From Oscillospiraceae bacterium (GTDB lineage Bacteria; Bacillota; Clostridia; UMGS1810): a stretch of 64,000 nucleotides of DNA. Position 1 is the first letter of the stretch. Each line of letters starts with the position of its first letter. Under the pieces are notes generated by a model. That model saw only the letters and a program-made list of their open reading frames with translations. It had not been told where the DNA came from and did not search any database. The DNA is taken from positions 1 through 64,000 of the forward strand of contig SVJU01000001.1 of NCBI GenBank assembly GCA_015068825.1. Reading direction: 5' to 3'. Shown here piece after piece: positions 8,803 to 63,506 of the stretch. The translations under genes and the position numbers were made by a program.

Positions 8803-8877
8803 GGTGAGCCATCGGAGATTCGAACTCCGGACACCTTGATTAAAAGTCAAGTGCTCTGCCGACTGAGCTAATGGCCC
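8802..8877 (-). tRNA. tRNA-Lys (TTT)
   Basis: Seven-bp acceptor stem, D arm, anticodon stem CTTGA/TCAAG with loop CTTTTAA (anticodon TTT), GTTCGAATC T-arm, discriminator A and encoded CCA (8802-8804). It is the last gene of the five-tRNA cluster. Confidence 0.97.
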
Positions 8878-8897
8878 GTATTTAGTTTTAAAAAAAT

Positions 8898-8974
8898 TGG
8901 CTGGGCTGGCTGGACTCGAACCAACGAAATGCAGGAATCAAAATCCTGTGCCTTACCGACTTGGCGACAGCCCA
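8898..8974 (-). tRNA. tRNA-Gln (TTG)
   Basis: Acceptor TGGGCTG pairs with CAGCCCA. Anticodon stem CAGGA/TCCTG carries loop TTTTGAT, giving anticodon TTG. The T-arm is GTTCGAGTC, the discriminator is G, and CCA is encoded at 8898-8900. The U1-A72 end pair is typical of bacterial tRNA-Gln. Confidence 0.97.
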
Positions 8975-8990
8975 ATACTTAAAAAGTAAA

Positions 8991-9067
8991 TGGGGTGGGT
9001 AATCGGATTCGAACCGATGGCCTCTAGAGCCACAATCTAGCGCTCTAACCAACTGAGCTATACCCAC
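8991..9067 (-). tRNA. tRNA-His (GTG)
   Basis: Acceptor GTGGGTA pairs with TACCCAC. Anticodon stem CTAGA/TCTAG carries loop TTGTGGC (GTG). The discriminator is C, and the base preceding the gene supplies the histidine-specific G-1 that pairs with it. CCA is encoded at 8991-8993. Confidence 0.97.
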
Positions 9068-9088
9068 CATGCTTTTTTAAAGCTTTAG

Positions 9089-9165
<77 letters not shown>

Positions 9166-9232
9166 ATACTTTGCAAGGAATCAAACCCCAATTGTGACAT
9201 TGAACTTATCAACCAAACCGTTAGATGAAAAT

Positions 9233-9307
9233 TGGAGCGGGTGATGGGAATCGAACCCACACAACCAGCTTGGAAGGCTGGGATTCTAGCCGTTGAACTA
9301 CACCCGC
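9233..9307 (-). tRNA. tRNA-Gly (TCC)
   Basis: Acceptor GCGGGTG pairs with CACCCGC. Anticodon stem CCAGC/GCTGG carries loop CTTCCAA (TCC). The T-arm is GTTCGATTC, the discriminator is T, and CCA is encoded at 9233-9235. It is the first gene of the cluster, about 33 nt downstream of the nearer promoter's -10 box. Confidence 0.97.
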
Positions 9308-51583: not shown

Positions 51584-51614
51584 AAAAACGGACAATCTTT
51601 GATTGTCCGTTTTT
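51584..51614. terminator. Bidirectional terminator between dut and the his operon
   Basis: Perfect 14-bp stem (51584-51597 with 51601-51614), TTT loop, with A- and T-runs built into the stem ends. It closes both convergent units; its edge touches the hisK stop codon. Confidence 0.92.
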
Positions 51615-52383
51615 ATATTTCAAAACCAATTTCTTTTACCTTTTTTTCATATTCTTCAAATTTATACATAATTGTATCTTTAGTGTGTGCATCGCTTGAA
51701 AGCACAACCTTACCGCCTTTTTCAAAAATATATTTTAAAATATCGTATGAAGGGTAGGCGTGTGTTTTGTAACCTTTTGACATACCGCCCATATTTATTT
51801 CAAATGGAATGTTATATTTAACAAGCTTATCTATTGCTTTTTTATATGAAGACACATATCTTGGGTTTTTCTCGTCAAAAAATTCGTATCCTTCGTTGTA
51901 TTTTGTTATTAAATCGAAATGTCCTATTATTTTTGGATTTAGTTTTTCTGCTACTTTCGATACTGTATCAAAATAATCCTCTACACAGGCGTAAAAATCT
52001 CCGTTGTAACATTCGTTTACCAAATTGTAAAATTTTTCCTTGCCGGAGTCAACAGTATAGTATTTACCATTAACCTTTAAATAGTGCACAGAGCCTATGG
52101 TGTAGTCAAAATCAGATGTATCCATATCAGAGAAAAAATCCATTTCTATTCCGCAATAAATTTTGATTTTATCTTTATACTTTTCTTTTAAAGACAAAAT
52201 TTCATCCTTATATTTTTGGATATCTTCTTTTTGCATACAATAGCTTTCGTCAAAGAAAGTATGTGAATGAGCCGAAAAACCTAATTCTTGCATTTTAAGC
52301 TCTATGGCCTTTAAAACCATTTCTTCGGGAGTGTTTTTTCCGTCACAAAAGTTTGTGTGAATATGAAAATCTTTTAAAATCAT
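51613..52383 (-). CDS. hisK: Histidinol-phosphatase, PHP family
   Basis: Dephosphorylates L-histidinol phosphate (step 8 of histidine synthesis). It has 256 residues of PHP fold with metal ligands in [11 protein letters not shown], the FSAHS and GIEMDF strands, GHFDLI and SSDAHTK. It overlaps hisIE by 4 nt and is the last gene of the operon, supplying the activity that the monofunctional HisB lacks. Confidence 0.93.
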
Positions 52384-53030
52384 TTTGTCATTTTCTCCTG
52401 TTTAACCTTGTGGTCAATAACATGTCTTGATTTTAATTCGTTATGAATATCTTCTAACGAAATGCCCATTTCTATCATAAGCACCATAATATGATATGCA
52501 AGGTCTGATATTTCATAAATGGTTTCTTTTTTGTCATCAGCTTTTGCGGCAATTATAACCTCTGTTGATTCTTCACCAACTTTTTTAAGGATTTTATCAA
52601 TACCTTTTTCAAAAAGATATGTTGTGTATGAGCCTTCTTTTTTCTCGTCTTTTCGTCCCTTTATAAGCTCCATAAGGCTTTGTAGTGAAAATTCATTTAA
52701 AGTATCACTTTCAAAGATTTTATTTTCAAAGCAGGAATCTGTGCCTTTGTGGCAGGCAGGACCGTCTTTTTCAACCACAACAACAAGAGCATCGTTATCA
52801 CAATCTGCGGTGATTGAAACAATATGCTGATAGTTACCGCTTGTTTCACCTTTTAGCCAAAGCTCATTTCTTGAACGACTAAAAAAGCAGGTAAGCCCTT
52901 TCTTAATAGATATTTCAAGGCTTTCTTTATTCATATATGCAAGTGTCAAAACCTTTTTTGATACTGCATCTACAACAATTGCAGGAATTAAGCCCTTTTC
53001 GTCAAATTTAAGTTCGTTTATGTTAATCAT
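52380..53030 (-). CDS. hisIE: Phosphoribosyl-AMP cyclohydrolase / phosphoribosyl-ATP pyrophosphatase
   Basis: Fused enzyme of 216 residues for steps 2 and 3. The N-terminal HisI domain has the Mg/Zn-binding TADCDNDAL and CHKGTDSC region. The C-terminal HisE domain (from about 115) is an all-alpha pyrophosphatase with [11 protein letters not shown] and [13 protein letters not shown] follows GGAG by 8 nt. Confidence 0.97.
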
Positions 53031-53043
53031 TGATAATTCTCCT

Positions 53044-53802
53044 TTATATTCTTACAGGAATGTTATTTTTGTTAAGTTCGCTTTTTAAGTCTGAAATAGA
53101 AACCTCGTTAAAATGGAAAATAGATGCTGCAAGTCCTGCATCAACCTTTGGAAGTGTTTTAAAAAGTTGTGTAAAATGGTCGATACATCCCGCACCGCCT
53201 GATGCAATAACAGGAACAGAAACCGCATTGCATACCTTGTCGAGCATTTCAATGTCAAAGCCTTCTTTTACGCCGTCGGTATCTATTGAGTTTAAAACAA
53301 CCTCGCCTGCGCCAAGTGACACACATTTTTTAATCCATTCAATAGCTTCCATTCCGGTGTTTTCTCTGCCGCCTTTTGCAAAAACTCTGAATACCCCGTC
53401 AACCCTTTTAACATCGGCAGATATTACAACGCATTGGTCGCCGTATAGTTTTGCCGCTTCGTAAATAAGGTTTGGATTTTTTATAGCTCCTGAATTTACA
53501 CTTACTTTGTCGGCACCGCATTTTAAAACTCTGTCAAAATCGTCTACTGTATTAATTCCACCGCCAACAGTAAGTGGAATAAAAATAGTTTTTGCAACCT
53601 CACAAAGAATATCGGTAAAAAGTTTTCTTCCATCGCTTGATGCGGTTATATCGTAAAACACAAGCTCATCTGCACCGTTTTCGGAATAATATTTTGCAAG
53701 CTTAACAGGACTTGATACATCATTAAGTCCTAAAAAATTAACACCCTTTACAACCCTTCCGTCTTTAACATCAAGACAGGGAATAATTCTTTTTGTAATC
53801 AT
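53044..53802 (-). CDS. hisF: Imidazole glycerol phosphate synthase, cyclase subunit
   Basis: Forms IGP and AICAR using ammonia from HisH. A (beta/alpha)8 barrel of 252 residues with catalytic Asp11 ([12 protein letters not shown]) and Asp130 (SADV). The start overlaps the hisA stop by 4 nt. Confidence 0.98.
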
Positions 53803-54515
53803 TTTTCTGCCACCTTTATTGCTTCGTTTAACGATATTGCACCGGTGTAATATGCTTTACCTATAATTGCCCCGTAAATATCAAGCTTAGTAAGTTTTTT
53901 TACATCGTCAATAGACGATACACCGCCTGATGCAATAATGTCAATAGAAAATTTTTCGGATAATTCGGTGTACAAATCGTGGTTTGTGCCCATCATTGCC
54001 CCGTCTTTTGAAATGTCGGTACAAATAATTGTTTTAACACCTAAATTCTGCATTTTTTTAAAGAAATCAAAGCAGGTAATTTCGGATTTTTCTACCCAGC
54101 CTTTAATTGCAACAAAATTATCTTTTATATCTGCACCAACGGCAATTTTATCGCCGTATTTTTTTATTGCCTCAATCAAAAAAGGCTCGTTTGTTACTGC
54201 GGCTGTGCCAAGTATTACTCTGTCAACGCCAATTGAAATATATTTGTCGATAACTTCCATACTTCTTATTCCGCCGCCAACTTCGGTGAAAAGATTTGTA
54301 TTTTTTTTGATATTTTCAATTACATCTATGTTTGGAGTTGTACCTAGTTTTGCACCCTCCAAATCTACAATATGCAAAAACTTTGCACCTTTACTTTCAA
54401 AATCCTTTGCAATTTCTAATGGATTCTCGCTGTATATTGTCATTTGGTTGTAATCACCTTTAAAAAGACGAACAGCTTTTTTATCGAATAAATCTATTGC
54501 AGGAAAAATGTTCAA
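53799..54515 (-). CDS. hisA: ProFAR isomerase
   Basis: Step 4 Amadori isomerase, a half-barrel duplicate related to HisF, 238 residues. Catalytic Asp8 (AIDLFDKKAVRLFKG) and Asp129 (GADI) are present. Confidence 0.97.
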   Translation of the reverse strand: MNIFPAIDLFDKKAVRLFKGDYNQMTIYSENPLEIAKDFESKGAKFLHIVDLEGAKLGTTPNIDVIENIKKNTNLFTEVGGGIRSMEVIDKYISIGVDRVILGTAAVTNEPFLIEAIKKYGDKIAVGADIKDNFVAIKGWVEKSEITCFDFFKKMQNLGVKTIICTDISKDGAMMGTNHDLYTELSEKFSIDIIASGGVSSIDDVKKLTKLDIYGAIIGKAYYTGAISLNEAIKVAEK

Positions 54516-54519
54516 TTAT

Positions 54520-55137
54520 TTACACCTCCATATCGGCAAAAGCTTTTAAAATGTTAAGTCCCACATTGCCGCTTTTTTCAGGGTGGAACTGACAACCAAA
54601 AACATTGTCTTTTTCAACTGCTGCAGTTAAAGGGTATCCGTAATCTGATGTAGCAATGGTATCGTTTTCGCATTTTGCGCCATAATATGAGTGAACAAAA
54701 TATACAAAATCTTTATCTTTTATATATTTAAAAAGTTTGCTTGGTTTTTTTGTAAAATCAAGTTTATTCCAGCCAATGTGCGGAATTTTTAAGCCTTCGG
54801 GAATAACCTCTTTTATAGGTCTTATTTCGCCTTTTATAAGGCCTAATCCAATATGTTCTCCGTATTCAAAGCTTTTTTCAAATAAAAGCTGCATGCCAAG
54901 GCATATTCCAAGAATTGGTTTTTTATTTTCTGCTTCTTTTATTATTACCTTATCAAGACCGGATTTTCTTAATTTGTTTGCAGCATCTTGGAATGCGCCA
55001 ACCCCCGGAAGAAGTATTTTATCGCATTTTTTTATTTCTTCTATGTCGCCTGTAACAATGCTTTCTACGCCAATCATATCAAGTGAGCTTTTTAAAGAAA
55101 ATAAATTTCCAACGCCGTAATCTATAATTGCAATCAT
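54520..55137 (-). CDS. hisH: Imidazole glycerol phosphate synthase, glutaminase subunit
   Basis: Class I glutamine amidotransferase of 205 residues feeding ammonia to HisF. The catalytic triad is Cys79 (GICLGMQLLFE), His185 and Glu187 (FHPEKS). The start overlaps the hisB stop by 1 nt. Confidence 0.97.
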   Translation of the reverse strand: MIAIIDYGVGNLFSLKSSLDMIGVESIVTGDIEEIKKCDKILLPGVGAFQDAANKLRKSGLDKVIIKEAENKKPILGICLGMQLLFEKSFEYGEHIGLGLIKGEIRPIKEVIPEGLKIPHIGWNKLDFTKKPSKLFKYIKDKDFVYFVHSYYGAKCENDTIATSDYGYPLTAAVEKDNVFGCQFHPEKSGNVGLNILKAFADMEV

Positions 55138-55724
55138 TAAAGCACTCCCTTTGTAGATGGTATTTCGTTTGCAAAATCAGCATCTATTTTAACAGCTTTT
55201 CTTAAAGCTCGTGCAACAGCCTTAAAAGAACCTTCTATAATGTGGTGTGAATTTGCACCGTCTAATTTTTTAATGTGAAGATTTAGTTTTGCATTCTGGC
55301 AAAAAGCAAGATAAAACTCTTTTACAAGCTCGGTATCGAATGTGCCTACCTTTTGTGATGGAACTGATAAATCGTACCCAAGATAGCTTCTTCCTGAAAT
55401 ATCAACCGCCGCTAAAATAAGTGCTTCATCCATAGGAAGTGTTATATCGCCATAACGGGTGATGCCCTTTTTATCGCCTAAAGCATCTGAAAATGCACAT
55501 CCTAATGCAATTCCTATATCTTCAACTGTGTGATGGTCGTCAACATAGGTATCGCCAACGCATTTAACAGTTAAATCAAATGCGCCATGCTTTGCAAAAA
55601 GAGTGAGCATATGGTCTAAAAAACCACAGCCTGTATCAATTTTGCTATCTCCGTTGCCATCAAGGTTTATAGAAAGAAAAATATCTGTTTCGTTTGTTTT
55701 TCTGTTTATTTCGGCTATTCTCAT
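55137..55724 (-). CDS. hisB: Imidazoleglycerol-phosphate dehydratase
   Basis: Step 6 enzyme, 195 residues, single-domain form without the HAD phosphatase found in enterobacterial HisB. The two Mn-binding His clusters are in DHHTVEDIG and SHHIIEGSFKA. Confidence 0.97.
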   Translation of the reverse strand: MRIAEINRKTNETDIFLSINLDGNGDSKIDTGCGFLDHMLTLFAKHGAFDLTVKCVGDTYVDDHHTVEDIGIALGCAFSDALGDKKGITRYGDITLPMDEALILAAVDISGRSYLGYDLSVPSQKVGTFDTELVKEFYLAFCQNAKLNLHIKKLDGANSHHIIEGSFKAVARALRKAVKIDADFANEIPSTKGVL

Positions 55725-55726
55725 TT

Positions 55727-56785
55727 TTATTCCTCCAGTATCAGTTTTAGAGTAGAAATAAGTGTTTCCATTTCTTCTTTGGTGCCGATTGTAATTCTGT
55801 TAAAATCTTTAATTTCTTCTTTATTGAAGTGTCTTACCAAAATTCCTTTTTCTTTTAAAGATAAGTAAATTTTTTCACCGCTTATTTTGTTGTGCTTTGC
55901 AAAAATAAAGTTTGCGGCAGAGTCGGGAAAATCAAATCCGAGTTTTTTAAGTTCATTTTTTGTAAATTCTCTTGTTTCAATAATAGTTTTAATATTTTTT
56001 TGAGTGTAAGACTCATCTTCTAAAACGCCAATGCCTGCTGCCATTGTCATTTTGTTTATGTTGTAAGGATTTGTAGAATATTTAATGGTGTTTAAATCCT
56101 GAATGATTTTTTTGTTTGCAACGCCAAAGCCGAGCCTTGCACCTGCCATTGAACGTGATTTTGAAAAGGTTTGTGTTACCAAAAGATTATCGTATTTTTT
56201 GATTAAAGGAACACAGCTTTCGCTACCAAAATCCACATATGCCTCATCAATTACAACAATGTTATCAGGATTTGAAGTAAGTATTTTTTCAATTTCATCT
56301 TTGCAAAGTGCAATTCCTGTAGGTGCGTTTGGATTTGCAATAAAAATTGTTTTATTTATGCCGATGTAGTCGTTTACATTTATTGTAAAATCCTTATTTA
56401 ATGGTATTTCTTTGTATGGAACATTGTTAATGTTTGCAAAAACCGAGTAAAATCCATATGTGATGTCTGGAAAATATGCAGGGTGGTCTTTGTCACAATA
56501 TGCCATAAATGCAAAATTTAAAATTTCGTCAGAGCCGTTTGTCATAAGAACTTCGTCATAATCTACGCCAAGCATTTTTGCGCATTTTTCGGTAAGTATT
56601 TTACATTCAGGGTCGGGATAAAGGTTAAGACTTTTTGATGCCTCTGATGCATATTCTATTGCTTTATCCGATGGTGCAAACGGTGATTCATTTGTATTTA
56701 GTTTTATATATTTAATATCCTTTGGTTGCTCGCCTGGAGTGTAAGGAATTAAATTTTTACGTTTTTCGCTAAAAAATCTACTCAA
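55727..56785 (-). CDS. hisC: Histidinol-phosphate aminotransferase
   Basis: Step 7 PLP transaminase of 352 residues. Seen are LNTNESPF, NGSDEI, NPNAPTG, Asp180/Tyr183 in VIDEAYVDF and the PLP Lys209 in TFSKSRSMAGARLG. The start is TTG (56785), 9 nt after GGAG. Confidence 0.95.
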   Translation of the reverse strand: MSRFFSEKRKNLIPYTPGEQPKDIKYIKLNTNESPFAPSDKAIEYASEASKSLNLYPDPECKILTEKCAKMLGVDYDEVLMTNGSDEILNFAFMAYCDKDHPAYFPDITYGFYSVFANINNVPYKEIPLNKDFTINVNDYIGINKTIFIANPNAPTGIALCKDEIEKILTSNPDNIVVIDEAYVDFGSESCVPLIKKYDNLLVTQTFSKSRSMAGARLGFGVANKKIIQDLNTIKYSTNPYNINKMTMAAGIGVLEDESYTQKNIKTIIETREFTKNELKKLGFDFPDSAANFIFAKHNKISGEKIYLSLKEKGILVRHFNKEEIKDFNRITIGTKEEMETLISTLKLILEE

Positions 56786-56791
56786 AGTTTT

Positions 56792-58066
56792 TCACTCCTT
56801 GATGCGTATTACTGCACTTTTTGCGTGCGCTGTAAGTCCTTCTTTTTTTGCAAAATATTCAACATCTTCGGCTACTTTAGAAAGAGCATTTTTGGTGTAG
56901 TAGGTGTATTGTGTTTTCTTTACAAAGTCGTCTACCGAAAGGGGAGATGAGAATTTTGCTGTTCCGCTTGTAGGAAGTGTATGGTTTGGACCTGCAAAAT
57001 AATCGCCCAATGCTTCAGGACAGTTTTTGCCCATAAATATTGAACCTGCATGACGTATTGAATCAAGGTAATCAAACGGATTATCAACACAAAGTTCTAA
57101 ATGTTCAGGTGCAATTTCGTTTGAAATTTCTATTGCAACATCAAGGTTTTCGGCTACAATAATTTTTCCGTTGTTATCTATTGATTCTCTTGCAATGTCG
57201 CATCTTTCAAGAAGCGGAATCTGAATTTCAAGCTCGTCGCTTACCTTTTTTGCAAGCTCATCTGAGTCGCACACCAAAACCGCACTTGCCATTTTGTCGT
57301 GCTCAGCCTGAGATAAAAGGTCGGCGGCAATAAACTTTGGATTAGAAGTTTTGTCAGCCACAATTAAAATTTCGCTCGGGCCTGCAATCATATCAATAGA
57401 AACTTTTCCGTAAACCTGTTTTTTAGCTTCTGCAACATAAGCATTTCCAGGACCAACAATTTTGTCTACCTTTGGAATTGTTTCGGTTCCGTAAGCAAGA
57501 GCTGCAATAGCCTGTGCACCGCCAACTTTAAAAATTTTGTCAACACCTGCAACAAAAGAAGCTGCAAGTATTACAGGATTTATTTTTCCTTCTTTGTTTG
57601 GAGGTGTAACAATTACAACCTCTTTGCAGCCTGCAATTTTTGCAGGAATAGCATCCATCAAAACAGTTGAGGGGTATGCCGCAGTGCCGCCCGGCACATA
57701 AAGACCTGCTCTGTCAACAGGAATAACTTTTTGCCCCATAACAATACCTTCAGTATCATTTATAATAAAGCTGTTTCTTACTTGTTTTTCGTGGAATTTT
57801 TTAATATTTTCGCTTGCTTTTTTAAGTATTTCCAAAAATTTTGGTTCAACCAAAGTAAGCGCCTCGTTGATTTCTTCCTTTGTAACAACAAGCGATTTAA
57901 GATCGGCTTTATCAAATTTTTTTGCATATTCAAAAATAGCCTTATCGCCGTTTTGTTTCACATTTTCAATAATTTCGGCAACAATATCCGATACATTATC
58001 TTCAGGATTTATTCTGGCGAAAATTTCTTTACTTTCAACCTCTGAGTATTTTAATATTTTAATCAT
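56792..58066 (-). CDS. hisD: Histidinol dehydrogenase
   Basis: NAD- and Zn-dependent four-electron oxidation of histidinol to histidine (steps 9-10). It has 424 residues with the DRAGLYVPGG signature, GPGNAYVAEAK, AGPSE and the QAEHD metal/catalytic region. It overlaps hisG by 4 nt. Confidence 0.98.
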   Translation of the reverse strand: MIKILKYSEVESKEIFARINPEDNVSDIVAEIIENVKQNGDKAIFEYAKKFDKADLKSLVVTKEEINEALTLVEPKFLEILKKASENIKKFHEKQVRNSFIINDTEGIVMGQKVIPVDRAGLYVPGGTAAYPSTVLMDAIPAKIAGCKEVVIVTPPNKEGKINPVILAASFVAGVDKIFKVGGAQAIAALAYGTETIPKVDKIVGPGNAYVAEAKKQVYGKVSIDMIAGPSEILIVADKTSNPKFIAADLLSQAEHDKMASAVLVCDSDELAKKVSDELEIQIPLLERCDIARESIDNNGKIIVAENLDVAIEISNEIAPEHLELCVDNPFDYLDSIRHAGSIFMGKNCPEALGDYFAGPNHTLPTSGTAKFSSPLSVDDFVKKTQYTYYTKNALSKVAEDVEYFAKKEGLTAHAKSAVIRIKE

Positions 58067-58701
58067 TTGTTATCCTCCGTTTGCTTTGCAAGACTTTGAA
58101 TAAGTGGCTCAATAAGCTCACTTTTAAACTTAAAGCCCGATTTGTTTGCAATAACTCTTGCGCTTATTGGCACAATGCTTTCTATTACTTCAAGATTGTT
58201 TTCTTTTAAGGTTGTGCCTGTTTCAACAATATCAACAATTACATCCGAAAGGTCTAAAATAGGTGCAATTTCAATAGAGCCGTTAAGGTGGATAATATCA
58301 ATATCTCTGCCTTTTGAAGCGTAGTAGTTTTTTGTTATGTTAATAAATTTTGTTGCAACTCTTAAGGTTTTTTCGGGATTATCTCTAAAATCCTTTTTTG
58401 CGGCAACTGCCATTTTACATTTGCCTGTGTCAAGGTCTAATAATTCGTACACATCAGGCGAGTATTCAAGAAGAATATCTTTTCCTGCAACCCCTATATC
58501 TGCCGCACCTCTTTCAACATAAATAGCAACATCAGAGGGCTTTACCCAGAAATATCTTACATTTTTTTCTTTGTTTTCAAAAATGAGTTTGCGGTTGTTT
58601 TCTTTTATTGCGGGGCATTCAAAGCCTGCTTTTTCAAACATTGAATAAACCCTTTCTCCTAATCTTCCCTTTGGAAGAGCAACATTAAGCATTGTTTTCA
58701 A
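58063..58701 (-). CDS. hisG: ATP phosphoribosyltransferase, short form
   Basis: Committed step from ATP and PRPP. About 212 residues, the short form without the regulatory C-terminal domain, which needs HisZ. Features are ALPKGRLGE, GVAGKDILLEYSPDVYELLDL and a PRPP loop DIVETGTTLKEN. The start is uncertain: TTG 58701 has ideal spacing (9 nt) from AGAGGGG, while ATG 58692 gives the more usual MLNVALPKGR. It overlaps the hisZ end. Confidence 0.96.
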   Translation of the reverse strand: MKTMLNVALPKGRLGERVYSMFEKAGFECPAIKENNRKLIFENKEKNVRYFWVKPSDVAIYVERGAADIGVAGKDILLEYSPDVYELLDLDTGKCKMAVAAKKDFRDNPEKTLRVATKFINITKNYYASKGRDIDIIHLNGSIEIAPILDLSDVIVDIVETGTTLKENNLEVIESIVPISARVIANKSGFKFKSELIEPLIQSLAKQTEDNK

Positions 58702-59800
58702 GAATTTCAACCCCTCTTTCCTGTAATTTCAAAAGCTGTTTATATTTTAATTTTTCGGGTATCTGTTTTTGTGCAGTTACGCTTTTTCCATTTGCACAAA
58801 GAAGGCTTACAGCATCAGCTAATGCTTTAAGGTCTGATTTTTCATCATAAAGAATAATTGCATCAACATCGTATTTTTTTTCGTCTTCAGAAAGCCTTTG
58901 AAGCATATCAAGATATACCGCAAAGCCGATTGCTTTTGATTTTTTACCCATTTTCTGCATTAGTTTATCGTACTGACCGCCCGATAAAATGCCTGATGCA
59001 ATTCCGTTTATAAAGCCTTTAAAAACAAATCCGTTGTAGTATTTTGTGTCATTTACAACCGAAAAATCTATGTGGATTTTATCTCCAAAACCGTTTTGTG
59101 AAAGAAAATCAACAATTTTTAAAAGCTCACTTATATCATCTTTTGTTTCGTCGGTTGCAATTTGGGTAAGTACATCGCAAACCTTTTTTGGTGTGCCGTA
59201 GGATGATACAAGCTTTACAAGGTTTTTGGCATCTTTTCCTTCATTATTACATATATTTAAAATTCCGTGGACATTTTTTTCACCGATACATTCCATAATT
59301 TTCTTTTGCGCTTCGGGTGATAAATCAAGCGATTTTATAACAGAAGATACAATACCGATATGAGAAATATCAAGCACAAAATCCTTTGAAATGCTCTCTA
59401 AACTTTTTGCTGCAAGGAACAAAACTTCATAAATATTATAAGTATCTATATCACCAATACATTCAAGACCAACCTGCATAATCTCTTTAAACGAATGAGC
59501 CGCATTTGTAACACGATATACATTTTCGTTGTAATAAACCTTTTGAACAGTATTTTTTTCGTCTTTACTGTTCTTTATTATAGAAAGTGTAACGTCGGGC
59601 TTTAATGCCATTAATTTTCCGTTTGTATCGGTAAAAGTGATAATATTATCCGATACAAGAAAATCTTTGTTTCTGACATAAAGGTCGTATTCTTCAAACT
59701 TGCTCATTTTATATTGCGAATATCCGTATTTTTTGTAAAGTGAGCGAAGATAAAATATAGCCTTTTCGTCATTTTTTAAAACATTTATATCAAAATTCAT
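58685..59800 (-). CDS. hisZ: ATP phosphoribosyltransferase regulatory subunit HisZ
   Basis: Class II aminoacyl-tRNA synthetase paralogue (HisRS-like) of 371 residues that forms a hetero-octamer with short HisG and confers histidine feedback. It has motif-2-like segments (PDVTLSIIKN, YYNENVYR) and ISGILSGGQYDKL. No anticodon-binding domain is evident. Presence in the his operon beside short hisG separates it from true HisRS. It overlaps the regulator by 1 nt. Confidence 0.92.
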   Translation of the reverse strand: MNFDINVLKNDEKAIFYLRSLYKKYGYSQYKMSKFEEYDLYVRNKDFLVSDNIITFTDTNGKLMALKPDVTLSIIKNSKDEKNTVQKVYYNENVYRVTNAAHSFKEIMQVGLECIGDIDTYNIYEVLFLAAKSLESISKDFVLDISHIGIVSSVIKSLDLSPEAQKKIMECIGEKNVHGILNICNNEGKDAKNLVKLVSSYGTPKKVCDVLTQIATDETKDDISELLKIVDFLSQNGFGDKIHIDFSVVNDTKYYNGFVFKGFINGIASGILSGGQYDKLMQKMGKKSKAIGFAVYLDMLQRLSEDEKKYDVDAIILYDEKSDLKALADAVSLLCANGKSVTAQKQIPEKLKYKQLLKLQERGVEILENNA

Positions 59801-60096
59801 TATTGTTCATCCTCGTTTTTTATTCTTTTAAGTATTGTTTCATATCCGCCACTGCCGTATAAAAGGCATCTGTTAACCCTGCTTATTGTAGCAGTGCTTG
59901 CACCTGTTTCTTTAGAAATAACCTGATAGCTTTTGCCTTCTTTTAACATTTTAGCAACAGATAATCTTTGCGAAATGTCCTGAAGTTCCTTAACTGTGCA
60001 GATATCTTCAAAAAACTTATCACATTCTGTTTGGTTTTCAAGAAGTAAAATTGCCTCGTAAAATTCTTTTATCAATTCGTTATGGTATGGTTTCAT
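59800..60096 (-). CDS. hisR: TrpR/YerC-family regulator, probable HisR
   Basis: A 98-residue all-helical DNA-binding protein of the Trp repressor superfamily (YerC/YecD group). The helix-turn-helix is at about 62-85 (YQVISKETGASTATISRVNR). ATG 60096 has GAGGTG at good spacing; a GTG three codons upstream overlaps that site. Comparative-genomics work has proposed YerC-type proteins as histidine regulators (HisR) in Bacillota. Being first in the his operon, with a palindrome in the promoter, supports autoregulated repression with histidine as probable corepressor. Confidence 0.85.
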   Translation of the reverse strand: MKPYHNELIKEFYEAILLLENQTECDKFFEDICTVKELQDISQRLSVAKMLKEGKSYQVISKETGASTATISRVNRCLLYGSGGYETILKRIKNEDEQ

Positions 60097-60126
60097 AACT
60101 ATCACCTCACACTTTATTACTTTAAT

Positions 60127-60155
60127 ATGCTAACACACTATAACAATAAAGTCAA
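60127..60155 (-). promoter_or_regulatory. Candidate promoter of the his operon
   Basis: Minus strand: TTGACT (60150-60155), 17-nt spacer, TAGCAT (60127-60132). The -10 is weak, which would suit a repressible promoter. Confidence 0.5.
60137..60152. promoter_or_regulatory. Candidate HisR operator palindrome
   Basis: A 16-bp imperfect palindrome of form ACTWTA-N4-TAWAGT. It lies in the spacer of the his promoter and touches its -35 box. Binding there would block RNA polymerase. Confidence 0.5.
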
Positions 60156-60311
60156 GTAAATAGCATGTATTTTGTGCAAAATAGGGTAAAAGGCAAAGAT
60201 TATTCAAGTTTTTATGTAATTATTTACATATTATATTAAAAATTAAAGTTGACGGTGCAAGGTAGGTATGATAAACTTTTATATACAACCAAAAAAATGA
60301 AGGTGAAAAAA

Positions 60312-61004
60312 ATGAAAATTTCAGGATTTCAAAAAATGACACTTTTAGACTATCCGGGAAAGGTAGCATGTACCATTTTTACATCGGGATGCAATTTAAG
60401 ATGTCCTTTTTGCCATAATGCATCGCTTGTAACCAAAATTGACCATAATAATTATTATAATGAAGAAGAAATTTTAAAATATCTTGAAGGCAGAAAAAAT
60501 CTTCTTGACGGAGTTTGTATAACAGGTGGCGAACCGCTTTTGCAAAACGACATATACGATTTTATTAAAAAAATAAAAGATATGGGTTATCTTGTTAAGC
60601 TTGACACAAACGGAACAAATCCAAAAAAACTAATCGAGCTTGCAGAAAAAAAGGTTATAGATTATGTTGCGATGGATATAAAAAATTCAAAAGAAAAATA
60701 TGCTTTAACTTCGGGAATTGAAAATTTAGATATTAATAATATAGAAGAAAGTGTAAATTTTCTTTTGTCAGACAGTGTGGATTATGAATTTCGAACAACT
60801 GTTGTGGATGTGTTCCATGATACACAAGATATAGAAAAAATCGCTATGTGGATTGGCGGCGCAAAGAGATATTTTTTGCAAAATTTTGTTGATTCGGGCG
60901 ATTTAATAGGCGATAAAATGGGCAGTGTAGGGGAAGAAACACTTAATAAAATGTGCTCTGTTGCCCGGAAATATGTAGAAAACACAATAATTAGGGGCGT
61001 TTAA
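60312..61004 (+). CDS. nrdG: Anaerobic ribonucleotide reductase activating protein
   Basis: Radical SAM activase of 230 residues that installs the glycyl radical on NrdD. CxxxCxxC is Cys27, Cys31 and Cys34 (SGCNLRCPFCHN), and the SAM-contacting ITGGEPLL follows. It is longer than classical E. coli NrdG and matches the TIGR02495-type group. ATG 60312 follows AAGGTG; a longer frame begins at 60249. It precedes nrdD, the reverse of the common nrdD-nrdG order. Confidence 0.9.
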   Translation: MKISGFQKMTLLDYPGKVACTIFTSGCNLRCPFCHNASLVTKIDHNNYYNEEEILKYLEGRKNLLDGVCITGGEPLLQNDIYDFIKKIKDMGYLVKLDTNGTNPKKLIELAEKKVIDYVAMDIKNSKEKYALTSGIENLDINNIEESVNFLLSDSVDYEFRTTVVDVFHDTQDIEKIAMWIGGAKRYFLQNFVDSGDLIGDKMGSVGEETLNKMCSVARKYVENTIIRGV

Positions 61005-61142: not shown

Positions 61143-63506
61143 ATGTATAACGTTATTAAAAGAGACGGCAAATCGGTTGATTTTAAAATTTCTAAAATCA
61201 GCGGTGCAATAACTCAGGCGTTTGATGCTTGTGAAAAACAGTATACTACAGATATTATAGATTTTCTTGCCTTAAAAGTTACTGCGGATTTTGAGCCAAA
61301 GGTTAAAAATAACTCCATTTCGGTTGAACATATTCAGGACAGTGTTGAGTCTGTTCTTATTAAAGCAGGTTACGATGAGGTTGCAAAAGCATACATCCTT
61401 TATCGTAAACAAAGAGAAAAAATCAGAAATTTAAGTGAAACACTTGTAGACTACAAACAGATTGTTGATAACTATCTTAATATCAATGACTGGCGTGTTA
61501 AAGAAAACTCAACCGTTACCTACTCGGTTGGCGGTCTTATTTTAAGCAACTCAGGTGCTATTACTGCAAACTACTGGTTATCAGAAGTGTATGACGATGA
61601 AATAGGCGATGCACACAGAAATGCAGATATTCACATTCACGACCTTTCAATGCTTACAGGCTACTGTGCAGGATGGTCTTTAAAACAGCTTATTCAGGAA
61701 GGCCTTGGCGGTGTATCAGGCAAAATTACCTCTTCACCAGCAAAACACCTTGCAACACTTTGTAACCAGATGGTAAACTTTTTAGGTATTATGCAGAACG
61801 AATGGGCAGGTGCACAGGCGTTTTCATCATTTGATACCTATCTTGCACCATTTGTAAAAGCAGATAACCTATCTTACGATCAGGTTAAAAAATGTATTGA
61901 ATCATTTATTTATGGTGTTAACACACCAAGTAGATGGGGTACACAGGCACCATTTTCTAACATAACACTTGACTGGGTTGTACCAAATGACCTTGCAGAA
62001 TTAAACTGTATTATCGGTGGTAAAGAAGTAGACTTTAAATATAAAGACTGTCAAAAAGAAATGGATATGGTAAACAAAGCGTTTATCGAAATTATGATAG
62101 ACGGTGATGCTAACGGCAGAGGCTTCCAGTATCCAATTCCAACTTACTCAATCACAAGAGATTTTGACTGGTCTGAAACCGAAAACAACAAGCTTTTATT
62201 TGAAATGACATCTAAATACGGTACACCGTATTTTTCAAACTATATCAACAGCGATATGGAACCAAGCGATGTAAGAAGTATGTGCTGCAGATTAAGACTT
62301 GACTTAAGAGAATTAAGAAAGAAATCAGGCGGTTTCTTTGGTAGCGGTGAAAGCACAGGTTCTGTTGGTGTTGTAACAATCAATATGCCGCGTATTGCAT
62401 ACCTTGCAAAAGACGAACAGGATTTTTATGCACGTCTTGATAAATTAATGGATATTTCAGCTCGTTCTTTAAAAGTTAAAAGAACAGTTATTACAAAGCT
62501 TTTAGAAGCAGGACTTTATCCATATACAAAAAGATACCTTGGCAGTTTTGACAACCACTTCTCTACAATTGGTCTTGTAGGTATGAACGAAGTTGGTCTT
62601 AATGCTAAATGGTTAGGAAATGATTTAACAAGCGAAAAAACACAGGAATTTACAAAAGAAGTGTTAAATCATATGCGTGAAAGATTATCTGACTATCAGG
62701 TTGAATATGGCGATTTGTATAACCTTGAAGCTACACCTGCAGAGTCTACCGCATTCCGTCTTGCAAAACACGATGTTAAAAAATATCCTGATATTAAAAC
62801 TGCTGCTAAAACAGAAGAAGAAACACCATATTACACAAACAGCTCACATCTTCCTGTTGGATACACAGAAGATATCTTTACAGCACTTGACATTCAGGAT
62901 GAATTGCAGACGCTTTACACATCAGGTACTGTTTTCCACGCATTCCTTGGTGAAAAACTTCCTGACTGGAAGGCTGCTGCAAATCTTGTAAGAAAAATTG
63001 CTCATAACTATCGTTTACCATACTATACTTTGTCTCCAACATATTCAGTATGTAAAACACACGGATACATCGCTGGCGAAAAATTTGTTTGCCCAGAGTG
63101 TGGCGCTCCAACAGAGGTTTATAGCCGTATCACAGGTTACTATCGTCCTGTTCAGAACTGGAACGATGGAAAATCTCAGGAATACAAAGACCGTAAGGTT
63201 TATGATATTGAAAATTCCAAGCTTGGAAGAAAAGATGTAACACCTCTTGTAAAAGAAGACGAAATCGTTTGCGATATTAAAGATGCAGCTTATCTTTTTA
63301 CAACTGCAACTTGCCCGAACTGTAAAATAGCTTGTGCAACACTTGATAAAGAAGGCTTTAAATACGAAAAGCTTTTAGCAGACGAAAATGCCGACCTTGC
63401 AACAAAATTCGGTGTAAAGCAAGCTCCTACACTTGTTGTTGTTAAAGACGGTGAGGTAGAAAAATTCAGTGGTGTTTCTGACATCAAAAAAATGCTAAGA
63501 GTATAA
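61143..63506 (+). CDS. nrdD: Class III anaerobic ribonucleotide reductase with fused thioredoxin-like domain
   Basis: Reduces ribonucleoside triphosphates under anaerobiosis. It has 787 residues. An N-terminal ATP-cone (1-100) gives dATP/ATP control. The ten-stranded barrel has candidate catalytic cysteines in MCCRLRLDL (about 380). A Cys4 zinc site (CKTHGY...CPEC) precedes the glycyl radical Gly665 in RITGYYR. Residues about 705-787 form a separate thioredoxin/glutaredoxin-like domain with redox motif CPNC (724-727) and the cis-Pro segment QAPTLVV. Most NrdD proteins end soon after the glycyl loop. With trxB next, I infer electrons come from NADPH through TrxB to this domain and not from formate. 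Codon usage resembles that of highly expressed genes. Confidence 0.96.
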   Translation: MYNVIKRDGKSVDFKISKISGAITQAFDACEKQYTTDIIDFLALKVTADFEPKVKNNSISVEHIQDSVESVLIKAGYDEVAKAYILYRKQREKIRNLSETLVDYKQIVDNYLNINDWRVKENSTVTYSVGGLILSNSGAITANYWLSEVYDDEIGDAHRNADIHIHDLSMLTGYCAGWSLKQLIQEGLGGVSGKITSSPAKHLATLCNQMVNFLGIMQNEWAGAQAFSSFDTYLAPFVKADNLSYDQVKKCIESFIYGVNTPSRWGTQAPFSNITLDWVVPNDLAELNCIIGGKEVDFKYKDCQKEMDMVNKAFIEIMIDGDANGRGFQYPIPTYSITRDFDWSETENNKLLFEMTSKYGTPYFSNYINSDMEPSDVRSMCCRLRLDLRELRKKSGGFFGSGESTGSVGVVTINMPRIAYLAKDEQDFYARLDKLMDISARSLKVKRTVITKLLEAGLYPYTKRYLGSFDNHFSTIGLVGMNEVGLNAKWLGNDLTSEKTQEFTKEVLNHMRERLSDYQVEYGDLYNLEATPAESTAFRLAKHDVKKYPDIKTAAKTEEETPYYTNSSHLPVGYTEDIFTALDIQDELQTLYTSGTVFHAFLGEKLPDWKAAANLVRKIAHNYRLPYYTLSPTYSVCKTHGYIAGEKFVCPECGAPTEVYSRITGYYRPVQNWNDGKSQEYKDRKVYDIENSKLGRKDVTPLVKEDEIVCDIKDAAYLFTTATCPNCKIACATLDKEGFKYEKLLADENADLATKFGVKQAPTLVVVKDGEVEKFSGVSDIKKMLRV

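Follow-up and report, generated by a model that had tools for sequence, protein, structure and literature searches.

An 8-bp ladder of TA boxes at a clostridial hisR-his promoter is a probable tandem operator for HisR

A histidine operon that opens with a gene for a Trp-repressor-like protein raises the question of whether this protein controls the operon and what kind of operator it reads. We examined such an operon in the window, a 64-kb stretch of an Oscillospiraceae genome (Table 1). A first-pass annotation had recognized a TrpR/YerC-family gene at the head of the operon, and profile searches bore this out: the first gene encodes a member of the YerC/YecD regulators and his genes lie downstream. 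The protein is not TrpR itself, scoring 20.1 bits against the TrpR equivalog TIGR01321 (cut-off 67.25). Because the TIGR00443 score of the second gene falls below the cut-off, the name hisZ rests also on its place beside hisG. The -35 and -10 hexamers of the hisR promoter are 17 bp apart on the minus strand, and the -10 lies 30 nt from the hisR ATG. Judged by consensus alone, this promoter does not exceed chance expectation (9 promoter-like sites against 7.1 expected in 1.4 kb); the call is supported by conservation in the upstream regions of relatives. Elsewhere in the window, nrdG2 (60312-61004) is divergent from the his operon and directly precedes nrdD (61143-63506, plus strand), an anaerobic ribonucleotide reductase gene; the C-terminal tail of its product (about 723-782) resembles thioredoxin weakly, by a match that falls short of the cut-off (E 3.7e-5). 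A five-tRNA gene cluster was found by Rfam at 8805-9307 on the minus strand, and PADLOC returned a single weak match.

Table 1. Features of the hisR-his operon and its promoter region (window positions; match counts refer to the published HisR palindrome)
Feature	Position	Strand	Remarks
Candidate HisR operator array, five TA boxes 8 bp apart	60110..60153	-	boxes at 60147-60148, 60139-60140, 60131-60132, 60123-60124, 60115-60116
Predicted dimer position A	60134..60153	-	second match, 11/14; contains the first-pass 16-mer (60137-60152) in N6 register
Predicted dimer position B	60126..60145	-	6/14 (manual count); spacer/-10 palindrome CRCTTTA ... TAAAATG, common in relatives, decayed here
Predicted dimer position C	60118..60137	-	9/14 (manual count)
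Predicted dimer position D	60110..60129	-	best match, 12/14; overlaps 3' end of -10
-35 hexamer TTGACT	60150..60155	-	promoter of hisR-his operon
-10 hexamer TAGCAT	60127..60132	-	extended (TGT before); inner arm of the first-pass outer repeat
Ribosome-binding site GAGGTG	60103..60108	-	6 nt 5' of hisR ATG
hisR (yerC)	59800..60096	-	98 aa, ATG start; TIGR02531 126.2 bits, cut-off 42.2; PF01371 105 bits, cut-off 27
hisZ	58685..59800	-	PF13393; best NCBIfam match TIGR00443, below cut-off (197.8 vs 271.65)
hisG	58063..58710	-	PF01634; listed ORF begins at TTG
hisD	56792..58066	-	PF00815
hisC, hisB, hisH, hisA, hisF	53044..56785	-	named from translations; ORFs 55727-56785, 55137-55724, 54520-55137, 53799-54515, 53044-53802
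hisIE	52380..53030	-	NF002747 268.6 bits, cut-off 187
hisJ-family histidinol phosphatase	51613..52383	-	final operon gene; TIGR01856 139.4 bits, cut-off 90.2

HisR control of his operons has been published, and just under half of the genomes studied show autoregulation. The 20-bp HisR operator was described in 2022 as cacTTTA-N6-TAAAgtg, and the R. gnavus protein binds its site only with histidine (PMC9413887). Two palindromes of this form, matching at 12/14 and 11/14 positions, overlap the promoter that precedes hisR-hisZ-hisG-hisD. The operator unit proposed from the first inspection was a different one, the 16-bp palindrome ACTWTA-N4-TAWAGT. It is present as ACTATAACAATAAAGT at 60137-60152 on the plus strand and is the only exact copy in the window (0.01 expected). 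Exact copies occur at three places in the whole source genome, and at the other two (L001, L003) no his gene was seen among the ORFs read. Consensus palindromes with up to three mismatches are not above chance, with 6 in the window against 7.4 expected and 165 per strand in the source genome against 195 in the reversed control, so single palindromes alone cannot identify targets here. The only perfect consensus palindrome of the source genome (C26:25493-25512) was left out of the HisR sites because it falls within a lysine riboswitch (L036 1485-1674; 97.8 bits). This riboswitch precedes an asd-like gene, and its HisR-like palindrome is a trap for motif scans.

The two spacings were compared in the upstream regions of relatives. 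HisZ alone was searched in 382 genomes of the class, yielding 64 matches at E 1e-40 or better, and the 250 nt before hisR were taken where hisR is directly 5' of hisZ (32 regions), or else the 250 nt before hisZ (32 regions). This set, selected blind to the operator, was used for the main counts because an initial set of 50 upstream regions collected around HisR mixed stand-alone hisR genes with operons (hisZ adjoining hisR in 10/50). The species are related, so the regions are not independent, and start codons were picked by script; with these properties of the set, the published half-sites at N6 match at 11/14 or better in 52/64 regions and at 12/14 or better in 31/64, compared with 13/64 and 2/64 at N4. 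Base shuffles with N6 reach these levels in 3.0% and 0.4%. The half-sites of the 16-mer also fit N6 better, with at least 11/12 matches in 20 regions and 12/12 in 8, compared with 15 and 1 of the 64 at N4. The N4 excess at 11/12 or better over shuffles (1.1%) is real but smaller than that of N6, and we take it to derive from overlapping boxes. The conservation of half-sites in relatives, which the first-pass annotation had offered as a check, holds for the left half ACTTTA and fails in register for the right half: the conserved right unit is TAxxGTG, starting 2 nt nearer the gene than TATAGT. That the 16-bp N4 palindrome is the operator is thus hardly credible, despite its exact presence in the window and its excess among relatives.

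Around the best palindrome of 52 regions, the half-site TAAAGTG recurs at an offset of exactly +8 (mean match 5.10/7 compared with 2.22 over offsets 7-40), and CACTTTA recurs at an offset of exactly -8 (3.92 compared with 2.12). Since the TA dinucleotide is itself symmetric, the orientation of the boxes rests on this half-site profile around the best palindrome. In the window, the five-box run of TA dinucleotides at period 8 (60115-60148) is the only one, with 0.08 expected. Among the 64 his upstream regions, period-8 runs of at least three boxes occur in 56, of at least four in 37 and of at least five in 11. At the remaining periods in the range 4 to 20, three or more boxes in a row occur in 3 to 23 of the same regions and four or more in no more than 3. 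After dinucleotide shuffling, period-8 runs of the three lengths occurred in 9.2, 1.18 and 0.1 regions on average, and the count for at least four never exceeded 5 in 200 shuffles. Eight of the 64 regions have no run of three, and 12 have no palindrome of 11/14.

The same order was found in a second set. Of 80 named hisR loci, 32 were his-linked, and two were dropped as duplicates, defined by the last 100 upstream bases being identical to those of a first-set member, so that near-identical ones may remain among the 30 further hisR-his operons. Period-8 runs of at least three boxes occur in 28 of these 30 and of at least four in 15, compared with at most 10 and 2 at other periods. The 48 hisR genes without hisZ or hisG just downstream carry runs of at least three in 13 cases and of at least four in 2; because most stand-alone hisR genes have no ladder, the ladder is tied to the his operon and not to every hisR.

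An alignment anchored on TTGACTTT could be made for 52 of 94 regions, and the eight columns of the anchor are identical by construction. Outside the hexamers, the 52 aligned upstream regions conserve the A that follows TTGACTTT, a spacer CRCTTTA, a GTG ahead of the -10 and a TAAAGT behind it. The conserved boxes extend from the -35 past the -10, which does not support an operator confined between the two hexamers as in the first reading of this locus. That reading had also described an outer inverted repeat bracketing the operator. Its arms are exact (ATGCTA at 60127-60132, TAGCAT at 60161-60166), but their bracketing role is unsupported, since the upstream arm is missing from the 16 bases before TTGACTTT in 9/9 relatives compared. 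The core proposal, a HisR operator with autogenous control of the his operon, agrees with hisR being the first gene and with conserved half-sites that overlap the promoter. In five hisZ-first upstream regions (L132, L144, L147, L149, L153), the mid-array TTGACTAA takes the role of the -35, with the -10 shifted by 2 nt relative to the TA-box register, a different arrangement of promoter and array.

We consider it probable that the hisR-his promoter is a ladder operator for several overlapping HisR dimers that would together cover the promoter. The ladder unit would be about TAaaGTGn, with TA-centred half-sites every 8 bp, and each TA box could be used twice, as right half-site at one dimer position and as left half-site at the neighbouring one. 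With five boxes, four dimer positions would reach from the -35 close to the start. Histidine-loaded HisR would most likely bind the strongest positions, D (60110-60129) and A (60134-60153), and further dimers might then bind side by side at 8-bp steps, perhaps cooperatively. Such a row would shield the -35, the extended -10 and the start region from RNA polymerase, so that plentiful histidine would repress hisR and the whole operon. Two features of this locus speak against a ladder, namely the poor matches of positions B and C (6/14 and 9/14 by manual count) and the coincidence of much of the ladder with promoter bases; with these weighed in, we still favour it overall.

A simpler arrangement would be one ordinary HisR dimer on the single 20-bp palindrome at 60110-60129, with the other boxes being promoter bases, A+T-rich background or a weak second site. 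This explanation draws on the 12/14 match at that position, on the weakness of positions B and C, and on a literature that describes single palindromes (PMC9413887). It does not account for the half-sites that flank the best palindrome at exactly 8 bp on either side across 52 regions, nor for period-8 runs that exceed other periods and shuffles and appear again in the second set, and we regard it as unlikely. Control by a leader RNA, either a T-box or an attenuator, has precedent, since many Firmicutes without hisR regulate their his genes by such elements (PMC9413887). At this locus hisR is present, the distance from the -10 to the ATG is short, Rfam finds only the five tRNAs in the window and there is no terminator-like site in 59500-60900; we give leader control a negligible chance.

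The 8-bp order could also be a by-product of promoter architecture (TTGACTTTA, a 17-bp spacer and an extended -10) and owe nothing to repressor binding. Of the 56 regions that carry a run, 38 have the called -10 in the ladder register, as such an origin would predict; in this count and in the masking results below, the scripted best promoter is sometimes not the array promoter (e.g. L105, L109, L117, L145). We nevertheless judge this origin very improbable. TA dinucleotides stand at -16, -8, +8 and +16 of the -10 start in fractions of.64,.58,.58 and.38 of 59 his promoters (55 regions), compared with.15,.11,.13 and.09 of 188 other promoters, which are controls without the 8-bp order. When the best -35 and -10 were masked in 94 regions, 254 TA pairs remained at 8 bp; distances that are not multiples of 8 averaged 109 (sd 15), and there were 181 pairs at 16 bp and 164 at 24 bp. 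After masking, a run of three at period 8 was kept in 33 of the 70 regions with a promoter of at least 10/12, compared with 3 to 17 regions for eight other periods. Eight of these 33 runs sit 5' of the -35 and appear to be chance occurrences. A run of at least three wholly 3' of the -10 is present in seven regions whose best promoter is 12/12 (L134, L179, L189, L191, L194, L205, L241), and L194 has three consecutive copies of TAAAGTGA.

The ladder operator was also sought beyond the his operons. A pattern combining the ladder with a promoter matched 50 of 391 genomes of the class, compared with 2 in the reversed control (manual count). Among the 30 loci returned, hisR or hisZ lies just downstream in 15, an apparent amino-acid solute-binding protein gene follows in 10 (three of the 10 were tested and all three are SBP_bac_3), and 5 have neither. 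When a tandem pattern without a promoter was used, 26 of 398 genomes of the phylum matched, compared with 10 in the reversed control (manual count); of the 26 distinct places (27 loci, two of them at one place), 14 have a his or hisX match no more than 500 nt away. The source genome itself carries a second array of four boxes on contig C38 (L169 2106-2131), upstream of an SBP_bac_3 gene.

The solute-binding protein behind this second array (C38:22623-23471 of the source genome, G000; L169/L280) looks circularly permuted. Its residues 107-283 align with 36-210 in L077, a canonical relative, and its residues 34-90 align with the C-terminal residues 212-266 of that protein. The whole permuted length is matched in eight genomes of the family, the source included (L281, L282, L283, L286, L287, L288, L289), and most matches outside the family begin near residue 95-119. 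Both observations speak for a natural permutation rather than an assembly error. Another locus (L291, G010:C30), partially read, encodes the C-terminal part of such a protein and, after it, the beginning of a second domain of this kind, possibly an intermediate on a duplication route to the permutation.

The regulator family, the consensus and the targets (his operon, hisR and an ABC transporter) are those of the published HisR system (PMC9413887), and the operator with its autogenous control is a new instance of that system. The published operators are single 20-bp palindromes, whereas the window carries an 8-bp array. Tandem or overlapping HisR sites and an 8-bp periodicity were not found in the passages of PMC9413887 covered, and a term search of PMC7518442 on this question gave no match. 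Titles and abstract openings of the papers retrieved on tandem TrpR/HisR binding or YerC did not state tandem binding for HisR. Within this literature the 8-bp ladder was not found described for HisR, and its priority is uncertain. The window protein is related in sequence, along almost its entire length, to three YerC/HisR-like structures listed as Trp-repressor-like proteins, 3frw, 3kor and 3g1c (E 6.6e-28, 3.7e-27 and 2.9e-24).

The closest parallel is TrpR of E. coli, a member of a repressor family homologous to HisR. Tandem TrpR dimers bind 8 bp displaced from each other on trpO/aroH-type DNA. The boxes of the TrpR operators are likewise 8 bp apart, with two CTAG boxes in trpO and three TA boxes in aroH, and in the window, too, half-site boxes stand every 8 bp where adjoining dimer positions would share them. 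By analogy, each TA box may be common to two adjoining HisR dimers. The TrpR operators differ in their half-site sequence, in tryptophan as co-repressor and in having fewer boxes. For most his promoters of this class, we see an even chance that HisR binds in the TrpR mode, as a row of overlapping dimers on shared TA boxes, with the number of boxes setting the steepness of repression by histidine. If so, tandem arrays would replace single palindromes in the published picture of the regulon for most of the his operons examined, and HisR would be tied to the tandem DNA-binding mode of TrpR, with a direct prediction of stoichiometry and steepness.
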